Positions 1,074 through 28,694 of a stretch of 35,883 bases of DNA are shown piece after piece. The notes under the pieces were generated by a model. That model ran no database searches and was not told the origin of the DNA. It saw only the letters and a list, made by a program, of their open reading frames with translations. The first letter of the stretch is position 1, and every line of letters begins with the position of its first letter. The DNA is from Ruminococcus sp. (lineage in GTDB: Bacteria; Bacillota; Clostridia; Oscillospirales; Ruminococcaceae): contig JAFUAO010000103.1 in NCBI GenBank assembly GCA_017460665.1, positions 1-35,883 of the forward strand, written 5' to 3'. Position numbers and translations under genes: made by a program.

Positions 1074-1102
1074 TTGACTTTCCCTTGCAGATGTGATAAA
1101 AT
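1074..1102 (+). promoter_or_regulatory. Sigma-A type promoter of islA
   Basis: TTGACT at 1074-1079 and TAAAAT at 1097-1102 are separated by exactly 17 bases. They lie 61 bases upstream of the islA start codon. Confidence 0.8.
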
Positions 1103-1116
1103 ATATGTAGTTTCAA

Positions 1117-1139
1117 AAACCTATTTTTTAGATAGGTTT
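1117..1139. promoter_or_regulatory. Operator-like palindrome in the islA leader
   Basis: AAACCTAT, seven bases, then ATAGGTTT form a perfect 8-bp inverted repeat that starts 15 bases after the -10 box and ends just before the ribosome site. This is where a repressor would block early transcription. A sulfur-responsive regulator such as CymR (Rrf2 family) is a reasonable guess from the operon's role, but I cannot match a consensus. Confidence 0.5.
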
Positions 1140-1163
1140 AATATGTAAAGGAGATGCTTTCAT

Positions 1164-3629
1164 ATGTCTCAGATCAAGGAATTATCCCCTCAGGAGCTCC
1201 GCATACAGCACAATATCGGCTACGGCCAAAAGCGTGCCGGCAGGATCCTTGAGGGCTTTCAGGGTAGCCGCCCCGTCATAGACATCGAGCGTGGAAAATA
1301 CTTCACCGAGAGCTTCAAGCAGACCGAGGGCCAGCCTCTGGTGCTGCGCTGGGCAAAGGCCCTGTACAGCTACGCCCAGAACGCCACGGTCTACGTTGAC
1401 GACGATCAGCTCATCGCAGGCCGTGCCGGACGTGAGGGCCGCTACGGGATCCTCTACCCGGAGCTGGACGGCGATTTTCTGGACGAGGCCATAAAGAGCC
1501 TGCCGGAGAGGGAGAGCTCTCCCTTCGACATAACTCCCGAGGACGCCGACTACATCATAAACGAGATCTCGCCCTACTGGAAGGGCAAGACCTTCCACGA
1601 GGCACTGGCGGCGGCGATCCCGGAGGACACAAGGAAGTACACCTATAATAACGACTCCGAGCTCAGCTCACGTTTCATAGTCAATGAGACAGCCTCCTTC
1701 CGTTCGTCGATACAGTGGGTACACGACTACGAAAAGCCCCTTCATATCGGCTTCAACGGCATCAAGAGGGAGGCTCAGGAGAAGCTGGCAGAGCTGGACG
1801 AGTTCAGCCCCGTGGACAACACCGAGAAGCGTCCCTTCCTTGAGGCGGTGATCATCACTGCCGATGCGATCATTCTTTGGGCACAGCGCCACGCTGAGCT
1901 GGCAGAGAAAAAGGCGGAGGCCGAGACCGATGAGAAGCGCAAAGCCGAGCTCCTTGAGATCGCACGGATCTGCCGGAAGGTCCCTGCTGAGCCCGCAGGC
2001 AGCTTCTACGAGGCCGTCCAGTCACAGTGGTTCATACAGCTCTTCTCCCGTGTGGAGCAGAAGACCGGCACGATCATCTCCAACGGAAGGATGGACCAGT
2101 ACCTCTACCCCTACTACAAGGCAGACAAGGAAAAGGGCCTTATCAACGAGGACAGGGCCGAGGAGCTGCTGGAGTGCGTTTGGGTGGCTATGGCCCAGTA
2201 CATCGACCTTTATCTCTCAAAGGCCGGCGGCGCCTTCAACGAGGGCTACGCTCACTGGGAGGCCGTAACGATCGGCGGCCAGACTCCCGACGGCCGTGAC
2301 GCTGTCAACGAGCTGACCTACATCTTCCTCCGGTCCAAGAGGGAGTTCCCCCTCAACTACCCCGACCTTGCCGCAAGAATCCACACACGCTCCCCCGAGA
2401 AGTACCTCTACGAGGTGGCTGAGACGATCAAGGACGGTAGCGGCTTCCCCAAGCTGATCAACGACGACGAGGTGGTGCCTCTCCTTCTGGCAAAGGGAGC
2501 TCAGTTCGAGGAGGCCTACGATTACAGCGTTTCCGGCTGTGCGGAGTGCCGTATGCCCAACAGGGACACCTACACCTCCCCCTGCGCTTATATCAACTTC
2601 GCCGCAGCGCTGGAAATGACGGTGTATAACGGAAAAATGCTGAAATACGGCGACGAGGTGATCGGTCTCCAGACCGGCGAGGCCGAGGACTTCGAGAGCT
2701 TCGATGAGTTCCTTGAGGCCTACCTGCGCCAGCAGAAGAACTTCATGAAGCACGCCTTTATCCAGCAGCATGAGATCATCCGCCTGAGAGCAGAGCACTT
2801 CGCCTCGCCTCTCGGATCCTCCCTCCACAAGCTGTGCATGGAGCAGCAGAAGGACATACACTCCCCCAAGATCGAGGGCGGCATAGACCTGGGCTATTTC
2901 GAGTTCATCGGCTACGGCACGGTGATCGACTCACTGGCGGCGATCAAGAAGGTGGTCTTTGAGGACAAGAGGATCACTCTCCCTCAGCTCAGAGAGGCCA
3001 TGGAGCACGACTTCGAGGGCTATGAGCCGATCAGAGCTCTGGTCACCAGCGCTCCTGCCTACGGCAACAACGACAGCTACGCCGACCAGATCGGCAAGCG
3101 CCTTGACCGTGAGCTGCTGGAGTTCACCAAGAAGTATTCCAAGGAGCTGGGCGTACATCTGGACCTGAGATACGTTCCCTTCACGTCGAATGTTCCCTTC
3201 GGAAAGGTGGTCTCGGCCACTCCCAACGGCAGAAGGGCCTATGTGCCGCTGTCGGACGGCTCCTCCGCTTCACAGGGAGCTGACAGGAACGGTCCCACGG
3301 CGATCCTGCTGTCCAACTACGCCACCAAGAACTACGACTACCGCAACAGAGCGGCAAGGCTTCTCAATATCAAGCTCAGCCCTCAGTGCGTGAAGGGCGA
3401 GGAAGGCACCGCCAAGCTGGTGGACTTCATCAAGGCCTGGCGTGACCTTAAGCTGTGGCACTTGCAGTTCAACATCATCAACCGTGAGACCCTGATCAAG
3501 GCTCAGCAGGATCCCGACGCCTACCGCAGCCTCCTTGTGAGAGTCGCCGGCTACAGCGCTTACTTCTGCGAGCTCTCGAAGGACCTCCAGGACGATATAA
3601 TCTCCCGTACTGAGCACGGCGCAGTATGA
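1164..3629 (+). CDS. islA: Glycyl radical enzyme, probable isethionate sulfite-lyase
   Basis: An 821-residue glycyl radical enzyme of the pyruvate formate-lyase superfamily. The C-terminal motif RVAGYSA places the radical on Gly796. The active-site loop SGCAECR gives the thiyl residue Cys459 and the general base Glu461. Residues I recall from published isethionate lyase structures (Arg189, Gln193, Trp374, Cys468, Glu470, Arg678, Phe682, Gly805) each have an identical residue here at a constant offset of nine: Arg180, Gln184, Trp365, Cys459, Glu461, Arg669, Phe673, Gly796. That favours cleavage of isethionate (2-hydroxyethanesulfonate) to acetaldehyde and sulfite. The start follows AAAGGAG. 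The stop overlaps the activase start (ATGA), and a sulfonate-type transporter lies downstream. Dihydroxypropanesulfonate lyase (HpsG) is the main alternative. The numbering is from memory and was not checked by alignment. Confidence 0.85.
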
Positions 3630-4495
3630 CCGGGACAGTATTCAATATCCAGCCATATTCCCTCCACGACGGCCCCGGCATACGGACGATCGTGTTCCTG
3701 AAAGGCTGCCCCCTTAGGTGCAAATGGTGCTCAAATCCTGAGTCCCAGAGCCCCTATCCGGAGGTAGCTTTCGACAGGGAGAAGTGTATCGCTGACAAGG
3801 GCTGCCGCTTCTGTGAGGGCGTCTGTCAGATCGAGGGCTTCTCCCCCAGCGAGACAAACGCTCGGCTAAAGGGCCGATGTCAGCAGTTTTGTGAGGTCTG
3901 TCCCTCGGGGGCCCTTACCGTTTACGGGAAGGAGATGTCCCCGGAGCAGATCCTTGACCGGGTGGAGGCCGACAGCGCCTTCTACTCCCACGGGAAGGGC
4001 GGCCTTACCCTTTCCGGCGGAGAGCCCTTCATGCAGGGACAGTTCGCCCTTGAGATCCTTCGTGAGGCAAAGCGCCGGAGGATCAGCACTGCCGCCGAGA
4101 CCTGCGGCTTTTGCGACACTGAGGTGCTGAGGCAGGCTGCCGGACTGCTGGACTATGTACTGTTCGATATAAAGCTCTTGGACAGCGAAAGGCACCGGCT
4201 CCACACCGGCGTCCCCAACGAGCTGATCCTCAGCAACCTGGAGATGCTGTTCAGTGAGTTCCCGGAGCTCCACAAGCACATCAGGACCCCTGTGATCCCC
4301 ACGGTCAATGACAGCCTGGAGGACATAGGCGCCATAAGCAGGTTCCTCTCCGGACGGGAGAACTACAGCTACGAGCTGCTCCCATACCACCGGTTCGGAA
4401 CGGGGAAATACGCTCTGCTTGGCCGGGGATATGCCGATATTCCCGAGAAAGTGGACGATGAGCTCATGGCGGAGCTGAAGAAGCTCCAGGTCTGA
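3626..4495 (+). CDS. islB: Glycyl radical enzyme activase (radical SAM)
   Basis: A 289-residue radical SAM protein that would install the glycyl radical on the preceding lyase. The CX3CX2C cluster motif is Cys28, Cys32, Cys35, and the SAM-binding TLSGGEP segment is near residues 128-134. Between them is the cysteine-rich insert typical of this family (Cys54, 60, 63, 67, 85, 89, 92), which in relatives carries extra iron-sulfur clusters. The start codon overlaps the islA stop by four bases, so translation is probably coupled. Assignment as IslB rather than another activase rests on its position. Reductive SAM cleavage makes the system strictly anaerobic. Confidence 0.88.
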
Positions 4496-4515
4496 AAATA
4501 ATTCCAGCTAAGGTA

Positions 4516-4544
4516 TTGACAAAGGAGATACATGGTGGTATAAT
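4516..4544 (+). promoter_or_regulatory. Consensus promoter of the sulfonate transporter
   Basis: TTGACA (4516-4521), a 17-base spacer and TATAAT (4539-4544) match the consensus at all twelve positions. The promoter sits in the 96-base gap between the activase and the binding protein, so the transporter can be expressed without the lyase. Confidence 0.85.
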
Positions 4545-4591
4545 ATCAATGCATACAATTCATATGTATTAAGTAGGAAAGGATAATTACT

Positions 4592-5581
4592 ATGAAAAAA
4601 TTACTCAAAACAGTGGCTATCGTATTGGCAATGAGCATCAGCGCAGTCCTGCTGACTGCCTGCGGATCCTCTTCACAGAGCAGCGAAGCCGGCTCCTCCG
4701 AGAGCAGCACGACCCTGCGTATCGCAGCTCAGCCCTTCCCCCTGTACACTCCCGTGTTCGTGGCCTATGACCTGGGCTACCTCAAGGAGGAATTCGACAA
4801 GGTGGGCGCTGACTTCACTTGGGATCTGTTCAACTCCGGTCCTCTGGTAAACGAGGCAGTTGCTGCCGGCGAGGCTGACATGGGCTTCATGGCCGACCTT
4901 CCCGCTATCATCGCTAAGTCTACAGGCCAGCCTATCGAGATCGTTTCAAACGTCGCTTACGGCGAGAAGGGCCTTGCAGTCCTCGTACAGGCCGACTCAG
5001 ACATCAAGAGCGTCGCAGAGCTCAAGGGCAAGAAGGTGGCCTATGCTACAGGCTCCTATGCTCAGCACCTGCTGGCTCTCCTCCTTTCAAATGAGGGACT
5101 TTCACTGGACGACGTTGAGACCATCAACCTCGGCGCAGGAGACTCCCCTGCTGCACTTGCTGCCGGAGAGGTAGACGCTATCGTTATCTGGGAGCAGTTC
5201 ATCTCAAAGCTGACCACCGACGGCACAGCTAAGGTGCTGGCAGACGGCACAGGCGTCAAGAAGGGCAACATGATCACTTACTTCGTCAGCGACTACGCTA
5301 ACGCTCACCCCGACGTGGTAAAGGCCTACATCAACGCCCTCAACAGAGCTAACGAGTACATCGAGAAGGACCCCGAGGCTGCTGCTGAGCTGGTGGCTGC
5401 TGACTTCAACATCGACAAGGAGCTCATGTCTCAGATCATCCCCAAGTTCACCTACAAGACCTCTCTCGACACTGACGATATTGCCGAGATCACCAAGGTG
5501 AAGGACTTCTCCCTTGAGGCCGGCATCATCAGCAACGACGTCGATATGGACAGCTTCATCAACACCTCATACCTGAACTAA
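4592..5581 (+). CDS. Sulfonate-type ABC transporter substrate-binding lipoprotein
   Basis: A 329-residue secreted lipoprotein of the NMT1/SsuA/TauA family, which binds nitrate, taurine, alkanesulfonates or thiamine precursors outside the cell. The signal peptide ends in the lipobox LLTAC with the lipidated Cys24, followed by a Ser-rich linker. The fold begins at TLRIAAQPFPLY and shows the family's GYLKEEF, VNEAVAAGEADMGFM and AALAAGEVDAIVIWE segments. It has its own consensus promoter and comes right after islAB, so isethionate is the most likely ligand. The sequence alone does not fix ligand specificity. Confidence 0.85.
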   Translation: MKKLLKTVAIVLAMSISAVLLTACGSSSQSSEAGSSESSTTLRIAAQPFPLYTPVFVAYDLGYLKEEFDKVGADFTWDLFNSGPLVNEAVAAGEADMGFMADLPAIIAKSTGQPIEIVSNVAYGEKGLAVLVQADSDIKSVAELKGKKVAYATGSYAQHLLALLLSNEGLSLDDVETINLGAGDSPAALAAGEVDAIVIWEQFISKLTTDGTAKVLADGTGVKKGNMITYFVSDYANAHPDVVKAYINALNRANEYIEKDPEAAAELVAADFNIDKELMSQIIPKFTYKTSLDTDDIAEITKVKDFSLEAGIISNDVDMDSFINTSYLN

Positions 5582-5593
5582 AACACCGAAAAA

Positions 5594-5619
5594 GGGGACT
5601 GCTGCTTGCGGCGGTCCCC
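5594..5619. other. Hairpin between binding protein and permease genes
   Basis: A 9-bp stem (GGGGACTGC/GCGGTCCCC with one T-G pair) with an 8-base loop sits 13 bases after the binding-protein stop. No T-run follows on the plus strand, so it more likely protects the upstream mRNA or gives partial termination, raising binding protein over permease. On the minus strand the stem is followed by TTTTT, although no minus-strand gene is seen here. Confidence 0.55.
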
Positions 5620-5640
5620 TAAAAAAGGAGTCAGACAACT

Positions 5641-6393
5641 GTGAAAAAGAGTTTCTCTTATTGGCTGATATATCTCGCTCTGCCGATCATCGTGCTTGCG
5701 GTCTGGGAGGGCTTCGACATAGCCGGAAGGCTAAAGCCCTACACCATGCCTGCACCCATGGCGATCGTGGATACTACTCTTGACTACATAAAAAACGGCA
5801 AGCTGTGGACCAACATCACCGTCAGCTTCCTCAGAGTGCTCAAGGGCTTCGGAGTAGGCCTTGCAGCAGGCTTTTTAGTCGGGATACTCTCGGCTCTCTT
5901 CCCGAAATTCGAGGCCTTCACCGACCTTGTGATCCAGATACTCCGCCCGATCCCTCCTATCGCTTGGATCCCCCTTGCGATCCTTTGGTTCGGCATCGGC
6001 GAGGAGTCGAAGGTCTTCATCATCTTCCTTGGAGCCTTCTTCCCGATCTTCCTCAACACCGCTGAGGGCGTAAAGAGCATCGACAGCAAATACTTCGAGC
6101 TTGCACAGGTCTATGAGGTGCCGAAGCCCATGCTGATCTGGCAGATCGTGATCCCGGGAGCTCTTCCCTCTATCATGACCGGTATCAGGCTGGGTGTGGG
6201 CAACGCTTGGGTCTGCGTGGTGGCCGCCGAGATGATCGGAGCCGTCAGCGGCGTCGGGCATATGCTCTCCGACGGCAGGAGCCTTTCACGGCCTGACATA
6301 GTGATCCTCGGTATGCTGATCGTCGGTATCGTTGGAAAGATCATGGACGACATACTAAAGCTGATCCACAAGAAGCTCATCACTTGGATATGA
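5641..6393 (+). CDS. Sulfonate-type ABC transporter permease (SsuC/TauC-like)
   Basis: A 250-residue integral membrane protein of the binding-protein-dependent permease family with about six hydrophobic segments. It includes the RPIPPIAWIPLAILWFG segment typical of SsuC/TauC and an EAA-type cytoplasmic loop (PKPMLIWQIVIPGALPSIM) that contacts the ATPase. The start is GTG, preceded by GGAG ten bases upstream. It follows the binding-protein gene after a hairpin, and the ATPase gene starts 9 bases after its stop. The substrate is inferred from the neighbouring islAB genes. Confidence 0.88.
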   Translation: MKKSFSYWLIYLALPIIVLAVWEGFDIAGRLKPYTMPAPMAIVDTTLDYIKNGKLWTNITVSFLRVLKGFGVGLAAGFLVGILSALFPKFEAFTDLVIQILRPIPPIAWIPLAILWFGIGEESKVFIIFLGAFFPIFLNTAEGVKSIDSKYFELAQVYEVPKPMLIWQIVIPGALPSIMTGIRLGVGNAWVCVVAAEMIGAVSGVGHMLSDGRSLSRPDIVILGMLIVGIVGKIMDDILKLIHKKLITWI

Positions 6394-6402
6394 GGTAGAC
6401 AT

Positions 6403-7170
6403 ATGGCTAACATCATCGAGATAAAAAAACTGAACAAGGTCTTCCGGTCGAAGGAGAACGAGGTGCAGGCCTTGGAGAACATCGACCTGACCATCGAGGA
6501 GGGCAGCTTCGTTTCGATCATCGGCGGAAGCGGCTGCGGCAAGAGCACCCTGCTGAGGGTGATCGGCGGCCTTGAGACCGACTATGAGGGCGAGTACCTC
6601 TTCGACAACGCTCCGGTCAAGGGACCCTCCCGTGACAAGGGCTTCATCTTCCAGGACCACAGGCTCCTTCCTTGGCTGACAGTGGAGAACAATATCCGCT
6701 TCTCCCTGCCAAAGGAAAAGAAGAAGGACGACGCCCTCATCAGGGAGAACCTTGAGCTGGTGGGGCTCACCGGCTTCGAGAAGTCCTACCCCAGACAGCT
6801 CTCAGGCGGCATGGCCCAGCGTGTGGCGATCGCAAGAGCTCTGGCCAACAAGCCGAGGATCCTGCTCCTGGACGAGCCCTTCGGAGCCCTGGACGCTATT
6901 ACAAGAATGAATTTGCAGGAGCAGATGCTCAAGATCTGGCACGAGGAAAAGATCACCATGATCATCGTCACCCACGACATCGACGAGGCGGTCTACCTTG
7001 GAGGGACCGTCGTGGTAATGACTCCCAGACCGGGCCGGATCAAGCGCATACAGAAGGTGGACCTTGGTACTCCAAGGCGCCGCACGGGAACTCCCTTCAC
7101 CCTTGCAAGAGATGAGATCTACAGGGAATTCTTCAGCGATGCGGAGATACCGATAGAATATAACATATAA
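6403..7170 (+). CDS. Sulfonate-type ABC transporter ATP-binding protein (SsuB/TauB-like)
   Basis: A 255-residue cytoplasmic ATPase that powers the preceding permease. All nucleotide-binding motifs are present: Walker A GGSGCGKST (41-49), the Q-loop glutamine (about 84), signature LSGGMAQR (133-140), Walker B ILLLDEP (153-159) and the switch histidine in VTHD (191). The DEAVYLGGTVVVMTPRPGRI segment is typical of the nitrate/taurine/sulfonate importer subfamily. It is the last gene of the operon and is followed directly by a strong terminator. Confidence 0.9.
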   Translation: MANIIEIKKLNKVFRSKENEVQALENIDLTIEEGSFVSIIGGSGCGKSTLLRVIGGLETDYEGEYLFDNAPVKGPSRDKGFIFQDHRLLPWLTVENNIRFSLPKEKKKDDALIRENLELVGLTGFEKSYPRQLSGGMAQRVAIARALANKPRILLLDEPFGALDAITRMNLQEQMLKIWHEEKITMIIVTHDIDEAVYLGGTVVVMTPRPGRIKRIQKVDLGTPRRRTGTPFTLARDEIYREFFSDAEIPIEYNI

Positions 7171-7173
7171 AAG

Positions 7174-7212
7174 ACCGGACACAAGGCTCTTCCGCTTTGT
7201 GTCCGGTTTTTT
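7174..7212 (+). terminator. Intrinsic terminator of the sulfonate operon
   Basis: A long stem (ACCGGACACAA paired with TTGTGTCCGGT) is followed by TTTTT. The hairpin also lies directly after the stop codon of the minus-strand 632-residue gene and may act in both directions. Confidence 0.85.
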
Positions 7213-9110
7213 CACGTTGACTGGGCTGCTGTGGGGAGATGATCCGGCATATGGCCGATCACCACACGCCTTTCCTCCTCGTCCCAGCAGAAATATATCC
7301 GGATCAGCAGCTTTGCGCTGACCCCGTATTTGATGTGCATATCCAGCAGGTACCTCCTGCCGTCAGCCTCGATCTCGTAATCGTCCCGGCGCAGCCTCAG
7401 CGCTCCGCTGCCGCAGCCGGCAGCCTCCCAGCTATAGCTCTCGCCGTACAGGGCCAGCTCCTCCCCGCAGATCTCTCCCCTGCGGTATCTTGCATAGGCG
7501 TCGAGGTAATAGATCCCGTCGCAGAGAATGGCCGTATCCAGCCCTCCGCCGTACTTCCTGAGAGCAGTCTCCGCCTGGGGAGCGATATAGATCCGCTCCG
7601 GGAAGCTCTTCTTTACCCAGCCGCAGATGCTGTTCTTGTCGGTGGGGAACTCCGCTGCGTCATAGGCCTTCTGCCGGTAGAAGCTGACCAGCTCCGCCGC
7701 CCGTTTATAGGCCTCCTCCTTGGAGCCGTACTCGTTCTTCAAGCTGGAGATGTAGACCTTCAGGCCCTCGTTCTCCCCTGTCAGGTCCCTTATCTGCCGC
7801 CGGAGCGTTCGGTCGCTCTCGATCTTCTGGCGAAGGTCGTTGTTCTGCTGAGCAAGCTCCCGGTTGCTCTCGCTGAGCTCAGTGTTCTCCTGCTTGTAGC
7901 TGGCCAGCTTGTCCTCTAGGGAAAGGCTCTCGTGGCGGCGCTCTCGCAGGTCTGCCAGCCTTGCGTCGGAGTAGAACAGCACGTCACCGTACCGGAAGGG
8001 CAGCCTTTTCAGCATATTGCGCAGCTCAGTTTTCAGCCTTAGCCCGAGCTGCTCCATATCTGCGTCCAAGTACCTCAGCCGCTCGGTCTCATGTCCGCCG
8101 GAGATCACTAAGATCTCGCCCTCGGACAGAGAGATCCCCAGCTTGTTTTTCAGCGCACCGAAGCAGCTCTCCCCCACGAAGCAGACCACCGAAAAGCACA
8201 TGGTCTTTGCGGCCAGCAGCTCGTAGTCTATGACCGGCAGCTTCTCCTTCTCCGCCTTCACAGGCCTTGGGCGCTGCTTTGCAGGAGCCTCGCTCTGGGG
8301 CCTTGCCTCGGGAGAGGTCAGGCTGGACTTGATGCTGACCTTCGACAGATCCGCCGTCAGTCCCCCTGTCAGTGAGAAGCTGTCAAAGCCGGTCAGCGAC
8401 AGCTTCCCCGGCTCCGGAGCTATCACAGGCCTTTCCGCCTTTTCATAGCCGCTGTCGGCCACCAGCACCACCGGCATACTGAACTCACGGGACTCGATCA
8501 GCCGCTCAAGCTCCCGAACGGAGCCCTTGTCGGTGATCATCATGGGCTTGCCGTCCAGCCGGAAGCCCTCCGCCGCAAGTCCCACATCGGGGTCGTTGGC
8601 CAGCTCCCTGACCACTGCCGGGCGGAACACCGAGCAGGGCGCATCGCAGTCCGAGGGCTCGGAGCAGACGGTCCGCACGCCCACCTCCACGTTCTCCTTC
8701 CACCTGAGAAAGGTGACCTCGGTCTGGAAGACCCGGCCTATGATCGGAGCTCTTCCCGAGGCGGCATCACCGCTCTCTCCGGCGTCGGGCTCAGAGATCC
8801 GGAAGGACCACACCCCTCGCCCGGGTATGTATGTGCAGTCCATGGCGGCGCCGGTGTTGATGTTGAAGGAGCGGAGCTGCTCGGAGGAGAAGCCGGCGTA
8901 GTCCTCCGGCTCAGGAGCCATGAGCTCCTCCGGGATCTTATCGAACCGAGCGAGCCTGGACCTCAGCCATTTCAGGGTCTGGAGCACGCAGATATTGAAA
9001 ACAGTGTCCGCCGGCAGCTTCTGCGATGCGGTGAACGCATGGAGCTGATAGGTGGGATAGCTTTTCAGCGGTGTGAGTTTTTTCGCCAGATATTCTTCCA
9101 TGATCATCAC
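7212..9110 (-). CDS. Uncharacterised 632-residue coiled-coil protein
   Basis: I do not recognise this protein. It has no signal peptide or membrane segment and is probably cytosolic. Visible layout: an N-terminal domain (about 1-230) with GRGVWSFRISEPD and VEVGVRTVCSEPSDCDAPC stretches; a Pro/Lys-rich linker (about 250-300); a second globular part (about 305-390); a heptad-like coiled coil rich in Glu, Gln and Leu (about 395-475); and a C-terminal domain (about 490-632). The last 41 residues (HIKYG, LIRIYFCWDEE, VVIGHMPDHL) read like the beta strands of a small RelE/ParE-type fold, but that is only an impression of the strand pattern. A promoter of its own lies in the divergent gap. Start could be the ATG at 9110 or the one at 9104. 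Its solitary setting would suit a single-gene stress or defence protein, which is speculative. Confidence 0.75.
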   Translation of the reverse strand: MMIMEEYLAKKLTPLKSYPTYQLHAFTASQKLPADTVFNICVLQTLKWLRSRLARFDKIPEELMAPEPEDYAGFSSEQLRSFNINTGAAMDCTYIPGRGVWSFRISEPDAGESGDAASGRAPIIGRVFQTEVTFLRWKENVEVGVRTVCSEPSDCDAPCSVFRPAVVRELANDPDVGLAAEGFRLDGKPMMITDKGSVRELERLIESREFSMPVVLVADSGYEKAERPVIAPEPGKLSLTGFDSFSLTGGLTADLSKVSIKSSLTSPEARPQSEAPAKQRPRPVKAEKEKLPVIDYELLAAKTMCFSVVCFVGESCFGALKNKLGISLSEGEILVISGGHETERLRYLDADMEQLGLRLKTELRNMLKRLPFRYGDVLFYSDARLADLRERRHESLSLEDKLASYKQENTELSESNRELAQQNNDLRQKIESDRTLRRQIRDLTGENEGLKVYISSLKNEYGSKEEAYKRAAELVSFYRQKAYDAAEFPTDKNSICGWVKKSFPERIYIAPQAETALRKYGGGLDTAILCDGIYYLDAYARYRRGEICGEELALYGESYSWEAAGCGSGALRLRRDDYEIEADGRRYLLDMHIKYGVSAKLLIRIYFCWDEEERRVVIGHMPDHLPTAAQST

Positions 9111-11062: not shown

Positions 11063-13360
11063 ATGAAGAAGGCGATAGCCGCTATCTCGGCGCTCGTGAT
11101 CGCAGCGCCATGGGTTTTGCCGGCAGCTAAGGCTAAGGCTGCTGACACCTATGACATGACAGTTACCGTTGATATGACTGACAGTGGAAAGGCCATAAGC
11201 CCATACATTTACGGTATAAATCAGTACGCTCATCAGGAGGACTACAAGATCGTAAGGCCTACCGCTGTCCGTCAGGGCGGAAATCGTATGACCGCCTATA
11301 ACTGGGAGACCAACGCCTCGAATGCCGGCTCTGACTGGAAGCACAGCTCAGACGACAACCTTTCCAAGTCCGACCGCCCCGCAGACTGCGCTCAGGTGCT
11401 CTCTGCCGAGGGAACTAAGTACGGCTTCGACTACAAGCTCACCACACTTCAGCTCGCAGGATACGTCGCCGCAGATAAGGACGGCCCGGTGAGCGAGGCG
11501 GAGGCGGCTCCCTCAGACCGCTGGAACAAGGTGGAGATCGTGAAGGGCGCTCCCTTCGATGAGACCCCCGACCTTGAGGACGGCACTGTCTACATGGACG
11601 AGTATGTCAACTACATCATCGGCGCTTTGGGCGACTCCTCCTCACCGACAGGCATACAGGGCTACAGCCTCGACAATGAGCCTGCCCTCTGGAGCGGCAC
11701 CCACTCAAGGATCCACCCCGAGAGAGTGACTGTGGCTGAGCTGGCAGAGAAGTCTATCGCTGCTGCCGGTGCTGTCAAGAAGCTGGATCCCGGCGCTGAG
11801 ATCTTCGGACCGGCCCTCTACGGCTATACCGCCTACGACCACCTGGCAGACGACGACAGCTCCACCGAATGGGAGACTATCCAGAGTGAGAACAACTATC
11901 ACTGGTATCTGGACTGCTACCTCGACCAGATGAAGAAGGCCAGCGACGAGGCCGGCACAAGGCTGCTGGACGTGCTGGATATACACTACTACTCCGAGTC
12001 ATCGAGAGTGGGCGCTGAGGACAGAGTGCAGTCTGTCCGCACTCTCTACGAAAAAGGCTTCGTTGAGAATAGCTGGATCGGCCAGTGGTGCCAGAAGAAC
12101 GTACCGATCCTACCTACAGTACAGGCTTCTATCGACAACTACTTCCCCGGCACTAAGCTGGGCGTGACCGAGTACAACTTCGGCGGCGAGGACGATGCCT
12201 CCGGCGCTATCGCACAGGCCGAGGCCCTTGGCTGCTACGCAGATCAGGGCGTGTACTTCGCTTCCCTCTGGGGCGGCAGCGGCTTCATCTTCTCGGGACT
12301 TGCCCTTTATACCAACTACGACGGCAGCGGGAGCTCCTTCGGCGATACCCTCCTGAGCACCAGCACCGAGGACGTTTCAAAGGCCAGCGCCTATGCCTCT
12401 GTCAACTCCGGCGACGACTCTACAGTTACCGTTATGGTCACAAATAAGGACTTCACCTCCGCCGAGAACGTCAAGATCGTTCTGGACGGCGCAAAGAAGG
12501 ACTACAAGTCTGCTGCGGTATACGCAGTTTACGGCGACAGCTCTGACATCCGCCTGATCGACGTCCAGCAGATAAACGGCAAGACCGTCGATCTCCAGCT
12601 CCCTGCCCTTTCTGCCGCAATGGTAGTGATCAAGGACGAGGAAACTGACATACAGATCCCCACTGAGCCTGTTATCGAGACAGAGGTCTATGACGACCCC
12701 ATGTCCATGATCAACGAGAACGGCTATGTCGAGATCCCGATCACGGATCCCGAGCACCTGAAAAAGATCGTCATCACCGGCGATGTGGCCTCCTCTGCCG
12801 GCTCTACATGGGGCAGCGCAGGCTGTGCAGTCTGCATCAATGCTGTTGACGATGCAGGAACTAAGTTCTGGACCTCAAAGAGCTACAGCCTGAGCCTCGG
12901 CACGGGCTCAAAGGCAACAGTGGACTTCGACGGCACCCTCAAAAACAAGGACGACGAGGTCAATGCTGTCGTGGCCGACGGCAAGGTAGAGCTCCAGAAA
13001 TGGTGGGATTCCTCCGAGAAGAAGGAGCTCGAGCAGGAGGACGAGATCACGGTGAGCTACACCAAGGTAGAGGTCTTCTACGAGTACCCTGCCGGCGAGC
13101 AGACCGAGACTGCAATGGGCGATGCGAACTGCGACGGAAAGGTGGATCTTGCCGATGCGGTAGCCGTCCTGCAATACTCCGCACTTCCTGCAAAGTACGG
13201 CCTTACAGACCAGGGATTGCTCAACGCTGACGTTATCGACAACGGCGAGAGCGGAGTCAACGGCGTGGACGCTCTGGCGATCCAGATGGTGGACGCAAAG
13301 GTGATCACGGTGGGCGACCTTCCTATGACTAAAGAAAACATGGATAAGATAAAGAAATAA
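11063..13360 (+). CDS. Secreted GH44 endoglucanase/xyloglucanase with CBM and dockerin
   Basis: A 765-residue exported plant cell-wall hydrolase. A signal peptide (about 1-27, ending AKAKAAD) precedes a GH44 catalytic module whose acid/base is Glu206 in SLDNEPALW and whose likely nucleophile is Glu370 in GVTEYNFGG. After the GH44 beta-domain, an acidic linker with IPTEP leads to a beta-rich module at about 540-675, probably a carbohydrate-binding module like those on ruminococcal GH44 enzymes. A type I dockerin (about 686-757) follows, with calcium loops GDANCDGKVDLADAV and a second, shorter NADVIDNGESGVNGVDAL. The dockerin implies attachment to a cohesin scaffold. The ribosome site is AGGAGGG seven bases before ATG. 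GH44 enzymes act on beta-1,4-glucans including xyloglucan; the exact substrate cannot be read here. Confidence 0.92.
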   Translation: MKKAIAAISALVIAAPWVLPAAKAKAADTYDMTVTVDMTDSGKAISPYIYGINQYAHQEDYKIVRPTAVRQGGNRMTAYNWETNASNAGSDWKHSSDDNLSKSDRPADCAQVLSAEGTKYGFDYKLTTLQLAGYVAADKDGPVSEAEAAPSDRWNKVEIVKGAPFDETPDLEDGTVYMDEYVNYIIGALGDSSSPTGIQGYSLDNEPALWSGTHSRIHPERVTVAELAEKSIAAAGAVKKLDPGAEIFGPALYGYTAYDHLADDDSSTEWETIQSENNYHWYLDCYLDQMKKASDEAGTRLLDVLDIHYYSESSRVGAEDRVQSVRTLYEKGFVENSWIGQWCQKNVPILPTVQASIDNYFPGTKLGVTEYNFGGEDDASGAIAQAEALGCYADQGVYFASLWGGSGFIFSGLALYTNYDGSGSSFGDTLLSTSTEDVSKASAYASVNSGDDSTVTVMVTNKDFTSAENVKIVLDGAKKDYKSAAVYAVYGDSSDIRLIDVQQINGKTVDLQLPALSAAMVVIKDEETDIQIPTEPVIETEVYDDPMSMINENGYVEIPITDPEHLKKIVITGDVASSAGSTWGSAGCAVCINAVDDAGTKFWTSKSYSLSLGTGSKATVDFDGTLKNKDDEVNAVVADGKVELQKWWDSSEKKELEQEDEITVSYTKVEVFYEYPAGEQTETAMGDANCDGKVDLADAVAVLQYSALPAKYGLTDQGLLNADVIDNGESGVNGVDALAIQMVDAKVITVGDLPMTKENMDKIKK

Positions 13361-18577: not shown

Positions 18578-20800
18578 ATGAAAAGAGAACTTATAAAACG
18601 GGGAGCAGCCCTCCTTTCAGCGCTGCTCCTTACAGGGAGCGTCCCGATCCAGACTGCAAGAGGAGCTCAGGCCCCAGAGGAGAAAGGTCCCCATGAGCTG
18701 GCCGAGGAAATGGTCCAGACCATGCCCCTGCGCCAGAAGCTGGCCCAGATGATCATGCTGGACCTGCGCCAGTGGACCGACAGCGAGGGCAATGCCGCCG
18801 ATCCCACCGTCCTCCATGAGGACCTAGCGGAGCTGCTGAGGAGCTACAGCTTCGCCGGGGTCTGCCTTTTTGCGGAGAACGTCACCGGCACCCAGCAGGC
18901 CGTCCGCTTCACCGCCCAGCTCCAGACAGCCGCCTCCGAGAGCCAGCTCCAGATCCCGCTGATCATATCCGCAGATCAGGAGGGCGGGAGCGTGATCCGC
19001 CTCGGCACAGGCACCGATACCTGCGGAAATATGGCCCTTGGCGCAGCAGGAGACCCTGATCTGGCCCTGGGCAACGCCCAGATCATCGGCAGCGAGCTCC
19101 GGGCCGTGGGGATCAATGCTGACCTTGCTCCCGACATGGACGTGAACAGCGACCCCAGAAATCCCGTGATCAACATACGCTCCTTCTCCTCGGATCCCCA
19201 GCTCACGGCAAAAATGGGCGCCGCCTTCATCGAGGGCCTCGATAGCTGCGGGATCATCTCCACTGCCAAGCACTTCCCCGGCCACGGCAACACCGACACC
19301 GACAGCCACACCGGTCTTCCGCTGGTGGAGAGCACCTACGAGGAGCTAAAAGCCTGCGAGCTCATACCCTTCCAGGCTGCTATCGACGCCGGAGCCGACA
19401 TGATCATGAGCGCACATATCCAGTTCCCTCAGATCGAGAGCTCCACCTATACCTCCGCCTCCACCGGGGAGGAGATCTTCCTGCCGGCCACCCTGTCAAA
19501 GACCGTCCTCACCGACATCCTCCGAGGGGATATGGGCTTTGAGGGCGTGATCATCACCGACGATATGCAGATGGCCGCTGTGAGGGCAAATTTCGACCCC
19601 TGCGATGCGGCAGTCCTGGCCATAAACGCCGGCGCAGACATACTCCTTGAGCCGGTGGAGACCTTCGATCCGGAGGGCGTGGAGGAGCTCGAGCTGTACC
19701 TTGACAAGGCGGAGGAGGCTGTCTCCGAAGGGCTGATCTCGGAGAGCCGGATCGACGAGTCCTGCACGAGGATCATCGAGATGAAGATAAAGCGTGGGCT
19801 CTTCGATGAGAGCTTCGAGGACGTGGAGGAACGGGTGGAGGCCGCCCTTGGCACCGTGGGCTCTCAGGAGAACCACTTACGGGAGATGGAGATCTCAAAG
19901 CAGGCGGTGACTCTGGTGAAGAACAGCCGCCATGTGCTCCCTCTCTCCATGGAGAGCGGCGAGAAGGTGGCCTTCTTCTACCCCTATCAGAGCACCGGCA
20001 ACTCTCTAAGCTACGCCTTCGGCAAACTAAAGGAGGAGGGCCTGGTCCCGGAGGACTGCGAGGCCTCCTTCACCTCCATGGACGGCAGGACTGCCGATGA
20101 ATTCGCAGAGGAGCTCAGCCAGTACAAGGCTGTGATCCTCTCCTCCGAGACCTGGGGCGAGTGGGAGATCTCCCCGAAAAACAGCGCCCGGAGCCGCTTC
20201 ATCAGCGAGATGACGGAGCTTGCCCACGATCGGGGCGTGAAGGTGATCGTGCTCAGCATGGTGCTGCCCTACGACACCGCCGCCTTCTCCGCCGACGCCG
20301 TACTTGCGGCCTATAATCAGCGGAGGATGCCCGTTGTGCCGGAGGTCTTCGACGGGGAGCTGACCACCTACGGTCCCAACTATCCGGCGGCGGTCTATAC
20401 GGTCTTCGGGGGGAGCTCTCCCTCAGGGCGTCTGCCGGTGGAGGTCTGCCGGCTGGACGGTGAGCACCGCTACACCGAGGAGGTCCTCTACCCCTTGGGC
20501 TGGGGAATGTCCTACCCCGAGGGCCTGCTGGGGGACTTCGACCTTGACGGCACCGTGGACGCAGCCGACGCCTCCGGGATCCTTTCGGCCTACGCCATGC
20601 TCCAGACCGGCGGGGCAGAGTCTCTGAGCCGTGAGGAGCTCTCCCTTGGGGACCTTGACGGCGACGGGCGGCTGGACGCCTCCGACGCATCGCTGGTCCT
20701 GAGCTACTACGCCTTTATCCAGACCGGCGGAGAGCTGACCTTCATAGAGTTCCTGCAAAGCGATACTGAGGGAAAAACAGAGGAGGCTGCCGGACAGTGA
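18578..20800 (+). CDS. Secreted GH3 beta-N-acetylhexosaminidase-like enzyme with dockerin
   Basis: A 740-residue exported GH3 enzyme. A signal peptide (about 1-30) is followed by the GH3 barrel. It carries the NagZ-type signature KHFPGHG with the Asp242-Ser-His244 acid/base dyad and the nucleophile Asp328 in IITDDMQM, features that separate beta-N-acetylglucosaminidases from GH3 beta-glucosidases. A GH3 C-terminal domain spans about 400-640. The tail (about 652-725) is a canonical type I dockerin with two clear calcium loops (GDFDLDGTVDAADAS and GDLDGDGRLDASDAS). Substrate is therefore likely a GlcNAc-containing polymer such as chitin or peptidoglycan fragments, unusual for a dockerin-borne enzyme. 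It follows a regulator gene by 36 bases and ends at a terminator. Confidence 0.9.
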   Translation: MKRELIKRGAALLSALLLTGSVPIQTARGAQAPEEKGPHELAEEMVQTMPLRQKLAQMIMLDLRQWTDSEGNAADPTVLHEDLAELLRSYSFAGVCLFAENVTGTQQAVRFTAQLQTAASESQLQIPLIISADQEGGSVIRLGTGTDTCGNMALGAAGDPDLALGNAQIIGSELRAVGINADLAPDMDVNSDPRNPVINIRSFSSDPQLTAKMGAAFIEGLDSCGIISTAKHFPGHGNTDTDSHTGLPLVESTYEELKACELIPFQAAIDAGADMIMSAHIQFPQIESSTYTSASTGEEIFLPATLSKTVLTDILRGDMGFEGVIITDDMQMAAVRANFDPCDAAVLAINAGADILLEPVETFDPEGVEELELYLDKAEEAVSEGLISESRIDESCTRIIEMKIKRGLFDESFEDVEERVEAALGTVGSQENHLREMEISKQAVTLVKNSRHVLPLSMESGEKVAFFYPYQSTGNSLSYAFGKLKEEGLVPEDCEASFTSMDGRTADEFAEELSQYKAVILSSETWGEWEISPKNSARSRFISEMTELAHDRGVKVIVLSMVLPYDTAAFSADAVLAAYNQRRMPVVPEVFDGELTTYGPNYPAAVYTVFGGSSPSGRLPVEVCRLDGEHRYTEEVLYPLGWGMSYPEGLLGDFDLDGTVDAADASGILSAYAMLQTGGAESLSREELSLGDLDGDGRLDASDASLVLSYYAFIQTGGELTFIEFLQSDTEGKTEEAAGQ

Positions 20801-22031: not shown

Positions 22032-22064
22032 AACGGGACTATCAAAGCGATAGTCCCGTTTTTT
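22032..22064. terminator. Bidirectional terminator between phage-like and polymer loci
   Basis: AACGGGACTATC/GATAGTCCCGTT with an AAAGC loop is flanked by an A-run on the left and a T-run on the right, so it can end transcription of the phage-like genes and of the minus-strand polymer operon. Confidence 0.9.
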
Positions 22065-23136
22065 ATTTACCGCAAATGCCCTTCAGGTAGTCCAGCGACC
22101 GCTGTTTCTCCTGACCGAGCCTCTCCTCGGCCTTATCCCAGTCGATGGGATCCAGCGAAACGCTCATGGTCTTAGGATCCAGCACCCTTGACCCGAGCCC
22201 GCACAGAGCGAGCAGGTCTCGGCTCCTTGTATTAGTGCTCAGCTTTGTTTTGAGCTCCACTACCAAGTTCTTGTGGAAGATCACTGAAAAGGCCGTTCCG
22301 TGGAAGGAATTTGTGAGGACGTACTCCGCATTTGCGAACCATCCCACGAACTCCTCAGGGGTAGAGAACCTTGCATGGTCGAGCTCTCTGTGGCTGGTAT
22401 AGCTCGAGTTCAGATACACGATCTCATACCCGGTCTGAGCTGACAGCTTCTTTGCATAGTCGATCAGCTTTATGGGGGGCTGGACATGATAGATCAGGAT
22501 GTACTTCCTGTTCCTTTCGGGGAGCTTTGCAAATTTCCGCCACTTCTCTCTGTCCAGTATCAATGTAGGGTCAAGGCTCATGAAGGCATCGATCCCGCAC
22601 TGAGACCTCAGGAGCTCCTCGGCGCTCTTCTCACGGACCGACACAGCGCTGAACTTCTTCAGCAGCTCCTCATAGGTCTGCTTCGTACCCTCCGGGAAGG
22701 AGGTAAAGCCAAAGCTGGCGGCATAGGAATACTTCTTTTTGCTGTCCTTCTCAAAGTCCAGAAGGTATGTGGTATCCATTCCGGAGAACTTCTTGCTCCA
22801 CACCTGATCTGAGCCTGATATGAAAAGGTCATAGCAGCTGCTTGCTGAGGCTATATCATCACGGACATACTTTTTTGAGAGCCTGAGCTTTCTTTCCCGG
22901 AAGCTCTCAAAGATCCCGTATTTCTTGCATTTCCCGTAATAGTGGATACAGGCCGAGAGGAATTTCTGACGCTTGAACACGTTCTTGGGATAATGGCACA
23001 TCTCCACCTCAGGGCAGTAGTAGTCGATGATCTCAGTATCCGGCTCATATCCTCTGACCACCTCAGTCAGAGCATAGGCCTGGAGCACTGCTCCGTAGTT
23101 AGAGGCCCGATGGAAGGTAAGTATACCGATCTTCAT
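22063..23136 (-). CDS. Polysaccharide pyruvyl transferase family protein
   Basis: A 357-residue cytosolic enzyme of the PS_pyruv_trans family, which moves a pyruvyl ketal group from phosphoenolpyruvate onto sugars of surface polymers. Visible family features are the N-terminal GILTFHRASNYGAVLQAYAL, the central LFISGSDQVWSKKFS, SVREKSAEELLRS, and the C-terminal EYVLTNSFHGTAFSVIFHK. Length is normal. Its start overlaps the stop of the upstream polymerase gene (ATGA), so it is the last gene of the minus-strand operon. It predicts pyruvylated sugars in the polymer, though some family members have other transfer roles. Confidence 0.88.
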   Translation of the reverse strand: MKIGILTFHRASNYGAVLQAYALTEVVRGYEPDTEIIDYYCPEVEMCHYPKNVFKRQKFLSACIHYYGKCKKYGIFESFRERKLRLSKKYVRDDIASASSCYDLFISGSDQVWSKKFSGMDTTYLLDFEKDSKKKYSYAASFGFTSFPEGTKQTYEELLKKFSAVSVREKSAEELLRSQCGIDAFMSLDPTLILDREKWRKFAKLPERNRKYILIYHVQPPIKLIDYAKKLSAQTGYEIVYLNSSYTSHRELDHARFSTPEEFVGWFANAEYVLTNSFHGTAFSVIFHKNLVVELKTKLSTNTRSRDLLALCGLGSRVLDPKTMSVSLDPIDWDKAEERLGQEKQRSLDYLKGICGK

Positions 23137-24431
23137 ATTTTAAGCTCCTCCACGTTACTAAAAATAGAGTTCTGCTGTATCTTATCATAATAAAGGAACA
23201 TGATGAAGATGATGAGCAGCTCATACCGGTAAAGGTAGAAATCGAAATTTGCTGACAGGAAGAAAGCGATGGCTGAATAGGCAAGTATCCTGTAGCTCTG
23301 CTGGTCATTAAGTCCCGCCTTTTTCTTATAGAAAAGGCACACATAGACAGCTATCGCAAAGGGTACCAGTGCCAGAAGTCCGCCTCGGTAGAGCAGCTCC
23401 AGCAGGACATTATGCATATGGTTATAGGTCGTCTTCAGGATCGTTACCGTTTCCTGCTCCCAGCCGAAGCCGATGAGGAAGCGGTCCTTCAGCAGTGCGA
23501 TACATCTTTTCCAGATAGTGACACGGGCCTGAAGGCTGTGCTGCTTATTGAAATACTTCTTGAAAATGAACATCATTCCCTCAAGGAGCCGTCCGAAGGT
23601 CAGCAGCACATCGAACCCCACGCACAGGAGGATATATGTTCTCAGGTTGAGCTTGCGCTTATCCAGCTTCCTGCTGCCGATGGAGAACTTATTGAAGATC
23701 CCTTCGCTGACCATGAAGACACCGAACACGAAAAATCCGATGAGGCCAGCCACCGACCACTGTGTAAAGAAGCAGAATATGGCGAACAGCAGATACCCCC
23801 ATGCAAAGGGCTTCAGCTTAGGCGCATAGGTATATACATACACAAAAAGCGCCGAGAGCACACCGATCACGATGAAGTATGATGCATTGGCATGGGTCAG
23901 GAGGAACCAGTTCTCTGAGAAGGATCTTCCCATGGTGGAGTTCATTCCCGAGCGCATACCCTTGTTATGGAATATCAGTATGGTACACAGGTGCAAAAAG
24001 GTCCAAAAGATGCTCATGGACAGGAATCCCTTAAAGAAATTCTTGGTATGGAAGCACAATCCCGAGCTGACTACGCAAATGAACCCGATAGTCTCGATGG
24101 TATTTTGCAGCGCATCGAAGAAATTCGCATTCCTGTAATTGAGCAGTGTCGAAAGGACATAGCAAACGACATAAGAGAAGGAGAACAGCAGCAGGGCGCT
24201 GTCCTTCTTCTGGTATTTTCCGTGCTTCAGATACAGGAACATCGCCACACCGAAAAGGCACACAAAGATCGTATACAGCTTCCACAGCTTATTGATCGTT
24301 GAGCCGATGACATAGTGGGCCGGCTTGATGAACGCCGTAGTCATGAGAGCATACATCAGGGTGATCAGCGTCCCTCTTGTAATATACGGTTTTATTGGAG
24401 AGACCGAAAATCTGGTCCTGATCTTACTCAC
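23133..24431 (-). CDS. O-antigen ligase/Wzy-like polysaccharide polymerase
   Basis: A 432-residue integral membrane protein with about ten or more hydrophobic helices and a long extracellular loop before the last helices. That loop carries the RVTIWKRCIALLKDRFLIGFGWEQETV and TYNHMHNVLLELLYRGG segments typical of the Wzy_C/O-antigen ligase family. It probably joins lipid-linked repeat units outside the membrane. The start is GTG, 21 bases after the Stealth gene, with an AGGTG ribosome site. It works with the Wzx flippase and Wzz-like protein in this window. Confidence 0.85.
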   Translation of the reverse strand: MSKIRTRFSVSPIKPYITRGTLITLMYALMTTAFIKPAHYVIGSTINKLWKLYTIFVCLFGVAMFLYLKHGKYQKKDSALLLFSFSYVVCYVLSTLLNYRNANFFDALQNTIETIGFICVVSSGLCFHTKNFFKGFLSMSIFWTFLHLCTILIFHNKGMRSGMNSTMGRSFSENWFLLTHANASYFIVIGVLSALFVYVYTYAPKLKPFAWGYLLFAIFCFFTQWSVAGLIGFFVFGVFMVSEGIFNKFSIGSRKLDKRKLNLRTYILLCVGFDVLLTFGRLLEGMMFIFKKYFNKQHSLQARVTIWKRCIALLKDRFLIGFGWEQETVTILKTTYNHMHNVLLELLYRGGLLALVPFAIAVYVCLFYKKKAGLNDQQSYRILAYSAIAFFLSANFDFYLYRYELLIIFIMFLYYDKIQQNSIFSNVEELKI

Positions 24432-24452
24432 TGCATTAGCACCTGCTTACAA

Positions 24453-25481
24453 TTATTTTTCAAAGCTCGACTTCTTGGGGAGAGCGTACTCAAAAGCGTC
24501 AATGATCTCTTTCTTAGCTTTCTCAAAGTCCTGCTGAGTAGGCAGAAGATCCATGTCATTGAGGCAAAGCATCTTGTATCTCCTGTTGCGGATAGCGTCG
24601 TCGATCCTTGCATTGGTAGGACGGATAGAGATCGCTCTTCCCAGCTTCTTGACATTTATCGGCTCAAAATTGCCGGAAGCGAGCTGCCAGTAGCGGAACA
24701 TATACTGGCTGACATCACGGCTGTCACGGAACTTTCTCTTCGATGTAGCGTCCAAGAGGTCATGCTCCTTCTTCCAAACGGTCTCGATAGTGCTCTTTAG
24801 GATCGGCACAGGGAGATGCTCGTTGGCGAAGCCCACGAACTCATGATAGTGGAAGTTGAACACATTGCACACGAAGTTCTTCATGCCGATCTTGAAGGGA
24901 TCGAACCACTTGCCCTTGTTCCTCTTGAGGGACTTTTTCATAGAGAAATGGCTGTTTATAGCCGCAGTCATATTCACATAGATATGGGTCATGATGCCGC
25001 CGTCGTGCTTAGGGAGTATGCCATAGATACGGGGCGGATGGACAGGCTTCCCGTGCTTAAAAAACAGGTCGGGAGAGACCTTGTCCGTCAGGAACATATC
25101 GTCGTTGAAATAAACGATCTTGTCTGAGAGCCCCTTGATCCTATGGATATTCAGCTCAATAGGGTGTGAGCTGAAGGTAGGCAGGTACTCCTCAGGCATA
25201 TAATCGGAATGTTTAACGTGTACCAGCTTTTTACAGTCTAAGTTGAGCCACTCCGGGACATGGCCCTCGGTGATGAAATAGACCTTGTTCACCCAAGGGG
25301 CATAATTCTCGACTGCACGGAACCAGTATTTAAGGTTGTCCCAATCACGGTAGCGTGAGTCACGGTCATCGGAGGCTTCCTCTATGACTTCGCCCGAATA
25401 CTGGGCTTTTTTTCTTCTCCAGGCCGGGTCTCCACCGTCCACCCAGATCATTACAAAATCTATCTTTTCCAAGAACAGCAC
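24453..25481 (-). CDS. Stealth-family sugar-phosphate transferase
   Basis: A protein of about 342 residues of the Stealth family, which moves hexose-1-phosphate from a nucleotide sugar to build phosphodiester-linked glycans. The conserved blocks are visible in order: CR1 (IDFVMIWVDGGDPAW), CR2 (SRYRDWDNLKYWFRAVENY, NKVYFITEG, DKIVYFNDDMFL), then CR3 and CR4 near VGFANEHLPVPIL and SQYMFRYWQLASG. The GTG at 25481 is close behind AAAGGAT, so the TTG a few codons later may be the true start. It is tightly packed between licD (5-base gap) and the polymerase gene. It implies a polymer with sugar phosphate linkages. Confidence 0.9.
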   Translation of the reverse strand: MLFLEKIDFVMIWVDGGDPAWRRKKAQYSGEVIEEASDDRDSRYRDWDNLKYWFRAVENYAPWVNKVYFITEGHVPEWLNLDCKKLVHVKHSDYMPEEYLPTFSSHPIELNIHRIKGLSDKIVYFNDDMFLTDKVSPDLFFKHGKPVHPPRIYGILPKHDGGIMTHIYVNMTAAINSHFSMKKSLKRNKGKWFDPFKIGMKNFVCNVFNFHYHEFVGFANEHLPVPILKSTIETVWKKEHDLLDATSKRKFRDSRDVSQYMFRYWQLASGNFEPINVKKLGRAISIRPTNARIDDAIRNRRYKMLCLNDMDLLPTQQDFEKAKKEIIDAFEYALPKKSSFEK

Positions 25482-25486
25482 ATCCT

Positions 25487-27059: not shown

Positions 27060-27067
27060 AGCGCATC

Positions 27068-27463: not shown

Positions 27464-27508
27464 TTGAATCATCCTTTTGTTTTGATTATTTCACTGCTCA
27501 AAAGCAGA

Positions 27509-28649: not shown

Positions 28650-28694
28650 GACCGAGTTACAGCAATAAAAAGCTCCCCGAATGAAGATGCTGTA

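Follow-up and report, generated by a model that had tools for sequence, protein, structure and literature searches.

A predicted isethionate sulfite-lyase cassette with an ABC importer in a Ruminococcus-like bacterium and its probable role in sulfur assimilation

The 35,883-nucleotide stretch of DNA analysed here (hereafter the window) is one whole contig (JAFUAO010000103.1, C88 in our numbering) of a 2.87-Mb draft genome that comprises 104 contigs and is 92.9% complete. The host is a Ruminococcus-like bacterium whose closest relatives are of rumen origin. The window carries a cassette of five genes (Table 1): islA, for a predicted isethionate sulfite-lyase, and islB, for its activase, come first, and are followed by the genes of the lipoprotein, permease and ATPase of an ATP-binding cassette (ABC) importer, behind an apparent promoter of their own. 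Judging from gene content and conservation, we consider it probable that this cassette serves to import isethionate and to cleave its C-S bond, and that the sulfur ends up in cysteine and methionine.

Table 1. Genes and predicted control elements of the isethionate cassette (window positions).
Feature	Position	Strand	Details
islA: isethionate sulfite-lyase, glycyl radical enzyme	1164..3629	+	821 aa; homology and active-site residues
islB: radical SAM activase of IslA	3626..4495	+	289 aa; 4-base overlap with islA
Substrate-binding lipoprotein, predicted isethionate-binding	4592..5581	+	TIGR01728 SsuA_fam; lipobox LTAC
ABC permease of predicted isethionate importer	5641..6393	+	PF00528; no model reached its NCBIfam cut-off
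ABC ATPase of predicted isethionate importer	6403..7170	+	PF00005; NCBIfam cut-offs unreached (best 25 of 188 matches)
Sigma-70-like islA promoter	1074..1102	+	TTGACT, 17 bp, TAAAAT, by eye
Predicted sulfur-regulon site	1114..1151		palindrome AAACCTAT-N7-ATAGGTTT at 1117-1139
Second promoter, before the importer	4516..4574	+	TTGACA, 17 bp, TATAAT, by eye; operator-like site 4546-4574

An earlier, sequence-only reading had placed an activase and a sulfonate-type ABC importer downstream of the lyase gene, and had seen neither a sulfite reductase nor an aldehyde dehydrogenase next door. The former is borne out by the gene order and by the lipoprotein, which passed the SsuA family profile TIGR01728 (203.3 bits, cut-off 163.5); IslB passed TIGR02494 (317.6 bits, cut-off 174.35) and did not reach NF048010 (383.9 bits, cut-off 430). 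The latter holds as well for the scanned neighbours, where we found no such gene (the open reading frame at 7212-9110 was compared with NCBIfam only, without a match), and neither these neighbours nor the cassette contained genes for a TRAP importer, a microcompartment or an aldehyde dehydrogenase. The block aligned with the islA locus of a Ruminococcus metagenome-assembled genome (MAG) from roe-deer rumen (L001) over positions 1149-7198, at 79-80% DNA identity and with a gap only at 4465-4704; beyond it, 22 kb of L001 sequence yielded no DNA match at E 1e-10. With horizontal gain in mind, these unmatched flanks and the rarity of islA (see below) were considered together with base composition: the GC content and third-position GC content of the cassette are similar to those of neighbouring genes.

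Relatives were taken from a scan of one genome per species, of which the best 80 of 181 loci were used. Twenty-five of them form a fermenter clade (L001-L023, L029 and L044) and 55 are other loci. Whole-genome searches covered the genomes of 40 of the 80 loci, 23 from the clade (including G027, which corresponds to L029) and 17 others; queries came from the host genome itself, from L002 or from close kin, and the identity and E-value cut-offs were set by us. An importer of the window type was present at the islA locus in 4 of the 25 clade loci and in 1 of the 55 others, and the lyase-activase-importer order recurred in L017, L020, L023 and L042. The window-type binding protein was detected at E 1e-50 in 8 of the 40 genomes, with 44-90% identity in G001, G016, G019, G022 and G034 and 34-38% in the other three.

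The importer could handle another ligand, such as another alkanesulfonate or a nitrate- or thiamine-precursor-like compound, and be a mere neighbour of islAB. Its apparent promoter would fit this, as would the fact that it passes no NCBIfam equivalog of defined substrate: the lipoprotein scored 76.2 bits on the taurine equivalog TIGR01729 (cut-off 304.25) and reached none of the substrate-specific cut-offs. Yet the five genes are conserved as a block between the window and L001 despite the unmatched flanks, and their order is kept in four further loci. Moreover, of the five genomes whose binding protein is closest, only G022 (Clostridium chromiireducens, L023) had a match to the taurine aminotransferase Toa, so that imported isethionate is the likely supply of the other four (at E 1e-120, Toa was detected in 17 of the 40 genomes, 15 of them from the clade). 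We therefore regard a different ligand as unlikely.

We then considered the identity of the lyase. The sequence-only reading had listed eight active-site residues of characterised isethionate lyases (Arg180, Gln184, Trp365, Cys459, Glu461, Arg669, Phe673 and Gly796), and all eight are indeed present in the window enzyme, at a constant offset of nine from Arg189, Gln193, Trp374, Cys468, Glu470, Arg678, Phe682 and Gly805 of Bilophila wadsworthia IslA (excerpts of PMC8473560). According to the same excerpts, exchange of Arg189, Gln193, Cys468, Glu470, Arg678 or Gly805 made the activity of the Bilophila enzyme undetectable, and exchange of Trp374 or Phe682 reduced it. The window enzyme thus has the glycyl radical residue (Gly796), the catalytic pair (Cys459 and Glu461) and the sulfonate-binding residues (Arg180, Gln184 and Arg669) together with Trp365. 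The eight residues and Thr303 are invariant in 80 of 80 relatives, save L044, whose sequence stops before the glycine. Seven of the eight, including the sulfonate-binding residues and Trp365, are also found in structure 6lon, which we take to be HpsG of B. wadsworthia and which is the one HpsG sequence compared. The residue list therefore chiefly excludes other glycyl radical enzymes; the proposed alignment with IslA and HpsG structures recovered all IslA residues, and the eight residues alone cannot separate the two enzymes. The distinction leans on Phe673 and Thr303, which are Ile and Ala in 6lon.

Overall similarity also gave a weak separation. In a phmmer search of the PDB the window enzyme scored 1234 bits with 5ymr (IslA of D. 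vulgaris), 1208 bits with 7kq3 (IslA of B. wadsworthia) and 1156 bits with 6lon, and the identities were 66.2%, 62.9% and 60.7%, respectively. In the tree, the window enzyme and that of L001 grouped together (SH-aLRT 99) within a 26-row clade (SH-aLRT 99), away from both IslA references; this clade is Bacillota throughout, with no named sulfate reducer among its rows. The HpsG branch was long (1.16) and its placement is unsure, the tree being a quick one, rooted at the midpoint, with HpsG as sole outgroup candidate. The top NCBIfam model for the window enzyme was NF048011, named 'HpsG' ((2S)-3-sulfopropanediol dehydratase), with 1516.6 bits for a cut-off of 1000. The same model gave 1538-1561 bits on the IslA-type proteins of L023, L054, L059 and L075, two of which belong to the branch beside 5ymr. 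The label HpsG was set aside because the model does not discriminate; since IslA-type enzymes surpass its threshold by over 500 bits, annotation pipelines that rely on this model are likely to mislabel IslA.

An HpsG-type lyase, whose true substrate would be 2,3-dihydroxypropane-1-sulfonate (DHPS) or another C3 sulfonate, would account for the top-scoring model, for the seven shared residues and for an identity to HpsG close to that to B. wadsworthia IslA; isethionate cleavage is, in addition, described as possible for HpsG (excerpts of PMC13219744). It appears distinctly improbable to us, given that the model fits IslA-type proteins equally, that Phe673 and Thr303 are as in both IslA structures and the 80 relatives, and that genes for making isethionate from taurine accompany islA: Toa was encoded at the islA locus in 15 of the 25 clade loci and in none of the 55 others. 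This genetic linkage is, in our view, the best argument for isethionate as the substrate.

The host itself can probably make isethionate from taurine inside the cell, by means of an operon on contig C28 that encodes an AraC-type regulator, an iron alcohol dehydrogenase, an aminotransferase and an importer. The aminotransferase is closest to the taurine:2-oxoglutarate aminotransferase 6jix (498 bits, runner-up 270), and the reductase to the sulfoacetaldehyde reductase BkTauF, 6jko (420 bits, runner-up 164). As judged by eye from the alignment, the reductase keeps the BkTauF substrate residues Phe252, Thr257 and Phe265 and the metal ligands Asp, His and His; the odd Gln196 of BkTauF is replaced by His, the commoner residue of the superfamily. 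It reached none of the NCBIfam cut-offs, that of SarD included (176 bits, cut-off 700). Given this operon, the importer of the window is probably a second supply route. The sequence-only reading had proposed sulfur assimilation from a taurine-derived sulfonate. Assimilation still stands, and the origin of the sulfonate may be wider than supposed, because rumen bacteria are described as transcribing an isethionate-producing sulfoquinovose pathway, the likely consumer named being a Mailhella sulfite respirer (excerpts of PMC13219744); sulfoquinovose is thus as plausible a source of rumen isethionate as taurine.

Looking at the fate of sulfite, we found a single NIR_SIR match in the whole genome, on contig C95. 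It lies in a cluster (L085:836-16491) in which CysD, CysN, an AprA-type adenylylsulfate reductase (898 bits, cut-off 557), a ferredoxin-like protein, a JAB protein, a MoeB-like protein and TusA are encoded beside the sulfite reductase, along with an O-acetylhomoserine-sulfhydrylase-like protein, a divergent Rrf2 regulator and six putative siroheme or tetrapyrrole genes, whose names were read from the sequences and not from a profile search. At 71 bits for the DsrA model (cut-off 393), the NIR_SIR protein is not a DsrA. Two further genes of interest lie elsewhere in the genome, one for a second sulfhydrylase, at 622 bits (cut-off 495), and one for a cysteine synthase, at 470 bits (cut-off 351). 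The TusA, MoeB-like and JAB genes, together with the sulfhydrylase-like gene, bring to mind how Wolinella makes methionine by way of a protein thiocarboxylate. As for the other product, the genome has seven matches to iron alcohol dehydrogenases, none within a frame of AdhE length, which makes a single-domain alcohol dehydrogenase the probable reductase for acetaldehyde.

The same picture emerged from the relatives. DsrA scored above its cut-off in 0 of the 23 clade genomes and in 7 of the 17 others; matches to the model, weak or above cut-off, occurred in 38 of the 40, as expected for a shared domain. A sulfite reductase of the C95 type was present in 20 of the 23 clade genomes, in 1 of the 17 others and in none of the seven with DsrA. 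Assimilatory genes (for sulfite reductase, sulfhydrylase, cysteine synthase, the JAB protein or siroheme synthesis) stood at the islA locus in 12 of the 25 clade loci and in none of the 55 others, a linkage for which the Fisher value of 9e-8 is overstated, since the loci share ancestry, short contigs are numerous and the host genome or L002 provided the queries. In seven genomes (G002, G007, G008, G015, G019, G021 and G027), the sulfite reductase and either Toa or the importer were on one contig, within about 12 kb. Assimilation is thus supported by the position of the sole NIR_SIR gene in an assimilatory cluster, by the lack of DsrA above cut-off in the clade and by the assimilatory genes at clade loci. 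Use of isethionate as a terminal electron acceptor or sink with sulfide as the end product, as in Bilophila, would involve a pair of enzymes identical in kind, and sulfite reduction could be an electron sink for a fermenter, but these same three findings and the predicted sulfur-regulon operator at islA (see below) make it very improbable.

Two further observations were made on individual relatives. In Ruminococcus YE71 (L003:10001-14542, genome G003), codon 704 of islA is an in-frame stop, all that remains behind islB is a taurine-type ATPase broken across two frames, and the genome search returned no Toa match, as if the pathway were under loss in this strain. Near-identical islA loci lie on two contigs of the MAG RGIG4809 (L004 and L005), which may be a duplication or an assembly artefact.

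We also looked at the promoters. The palindrome upstream of islA (Table 1) is also found in L001. A 17-base consensus, CATASTANWCAKATAGG, was drawn by eye from the islA promoters of relatives and the metY region. Scanning 28 sequences gave eight matches with at most one mismatch, compared with none in five base shuffles; all eight lie 5' of islA, of taurine importer genes or of metY, two of them being near-copies from one MAG, and the scan is partly circular. The host genome has six matches with at most two mismatches. Five are directly 5' of sulfur or cysteine genes or operons, namely the metY cluster, the taurine operon, the second sulfhydrylase, a glutamate-cysteine-ligase-like gene (a weak match, 37 bits) and a cysteine synthase that neighbours an Rrf2 gene; the remaining match precedes a gene whose sequence alone suggests restriction-type specificity. 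In view of the circularity of the consensus scan, a matrix was built from the five host sites not belonging to islA, a procedure with some residual circularity because these sites had themselves been found with CATASTANWCAKATAGG. When the matrix was run over the 71710 positions of the window, the islA promoter came first and that of the importer fourth, and 2 of 1000 column-permuted matrices reached both ranks. A top-two site (score >10) was present 5' of islA in 14 of the 25 clade loci and in 5 of 54 others, one locus with short upstream sequence having been dropped. We consider a predicted operator common to islA, the importer and the sulfur genes likely.

The proposed mechanism would be as follows. 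The lipoprotein, permease and ATPase would bring isethionate into the cell, and IslB, by homology, would install the glycyl radical on Gly796 of IslA. With Arg180, Gln184 and Arg669 holding the sulfonate, Cys459 and Glu461 would then split isethionate into acetaldehyde and sulfite, a step deduced from the full conservation of the residues required in B. wadsworthia IslA. The small sulfite reductase of contig C95 would convert sulfite to sulfide, and O-acetylhomoserine sulfhydrylase or cysteine synthase would fix the sulfide; the genes for both steps are present, and the flow through them is presumed. Acetaldehyde would be reduced by one single-domain iron alcohol dehydrogenase. The separate taurine importer, aminotransferase and sulfoacetaldehyde reductase of the same genome could supply IslA from taurine, and both supply routes are probably under an Rrf2-type sulfur or cysteine regulator.

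Besides the closeness to HpsG set out above, several observations weigh against this reading. The sulfite reductase of C95 is AsrC-like and scored 158 bits, below the cut-off of 324, and the sulfhydrylase-like protein encoded near it is also below its cut-off (410 bits, cut-off 495), as is the C28 binding protein, for which the taurine model was the best (248 bits, cut-off 304). The genome has sulfate-assimilation genes, so isethionate would be dispensable while sulfate is present. Among the relatives, the C95-type sulfite reductase was not seen in the clade genomes G010, G014 and G018. At our thresholds, Toa and the window-type binding protein were both missing from G003 and from G011-G014. 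The locus counts are phylogenetically non-independent, and distant orthologues may escape queries derived from kin, which biases the counts of 0 in 55 toward assimilation. islA is also rare, being found in 2 of 125 genomes of the genus and in 4 of 396 genomes drawn from the family. Concerning the regulon, a reversed control pattern gave 15 matches in the host genome compared with 6 for the motif, meaning that the positions of the motif matches, and not their number, are unusual. The matrix is AT-rich, and 61 of the 1000 column-permuted matrices also ranked the islA promoter first; AT bias accounts for part of this ranking. Finally, both Rrf2 proteins, encoded on contigs C95 and C20, remained below the CymR cut-off of 195, with 83 and 110 bits.

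The remainder of the window gives the setting of the cassette. The sequence-only reading had taken the host for a dockerin-encoding bacterium, and the GH3 enzyme at 18578-20800 does carry a type I dockerin (Dockerin_1, E 2.7e-6). A GH44 enzyme is encoded at 11063-13360, and together these two suggest cellulosome-type fibre degradation. The region 22063-33082, mainly 31343-33082 (+) and 25487-27071 (-), encodes polysaccharide-synthesis, pyruvyl-transferase-like and phospholipid-synthase-like proteins and a MenD-like thiamine pyrophosphate (TPP) enzyme. The TPP enzyme (31343-33082) was examined as a possible sulfoacetaldehyde acetyltransferase and rejected: MenD was the best model (177 bits, below the cut-off of 244), and Xsc reached merely E 2.5e-4.

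Altogether, the cassette seems to us to hold a known enzyme in an assimilatory variant, supplied by modules that can replace each other, either an isethionate importer or a taurine operon. On balance we lean towards the wider proposal that a sulfur-starvation regulon is common to fermentative Clostridia, fibre degraders among them, in the rumen and probably in other guts; IslA would be the joint outlet of these two modules, and sulfonate sulfur would enter biomass and not sulfide. If so, fibre degraders would rival sulfite respirers for isethionate released by other members of the community, for example from plant sulfolipid, and isethionate from plant sulfolipid or taurine would gain a second, non-sulfidogenic consumer. 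In the gut, IslA is regarded as the enzyme by which the sulfur of taurine and isethionate becomes sulfide; if the fermenter clade builds amino acids with it, metagenomic islA alone would not be a marker of sulfide production. The pattern of modules further predicts strains that grow on taurine, on isethionate or on both as sulfur source.

Chien and co-workers reportedly described in the 1990s how clostridia draw sulfur from taurine and isethionate. In the open-licence literature searched we found no account of IslA in the sulfur assimilation of fermenters, and the new element, judged on genome evidence alone, would be the assimilatory setting of IslA in fermenters with interchangeable modules. 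IslA has been described for sulfite respiration (excerpts of PMC6386719 and PMC6453916), and the first of these notes homologues in Clostridia and Negativicutes, whose metabolism it poses as a question. In a 2026 review and in a survey of gut metagenomes, the anaerobic route from taurine figures as a source of sulfide (excerpts of PMC13232883 and PMC9016944). In a Rhodobacter capsulatus mutant, Bilophila IslAB restored growth on isethionate sulfur; one sentence of that paper terms IslAB assimilatory, and its distribution is plotted (excerpts of PMC11423573).

Compared with known systems, the cassette shares with IslAB of B. wadsworthia and Desulfovibrio the enzyme, the activase, the active-site residues and the predicted reaction (PMC6386719, PMC6453916 and PMC8473560, in excerpt). 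Those enzymes serve sulfite respiration, whereas in our host we did not find DsrA, the adjoining genes encode an ABC importer, and the cluster with the sulfite reductase is assimilatory. The taurine clusters of Bifidobacterium and other fermenters comprise a taurine importer, Toa and a TauF-type reductase, as on C28; they are proposed to serve the use of taurine nitrogen, with isethionate exported as waste (excerpts of PMC6616044), while IslA of our host could cut isethionate and retain its sulfur, and, unlike those nitrogen-assimilation clusters, the taurine genes of the clade lie near islA at most of its loci. In R. capsulatus, IsrBHDK with SsuCAB allows anaerobic use of isethionate sulfur through an SsuABC-type importer, and islAB can partly substitute; IsrBHDK is a nitrogenase-like enzyme (excerpts of PMC11423573), whereas the IslA of the window is a glycyl radical enzyme. 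The importer of the window resembles SsuABC and TauABC in having an SsuA-family binding lipoprotein, a single permease and a single ATPase, and differs in its binding protein, which shares about 30% identity with its taurine-type counterpart in the relatives.

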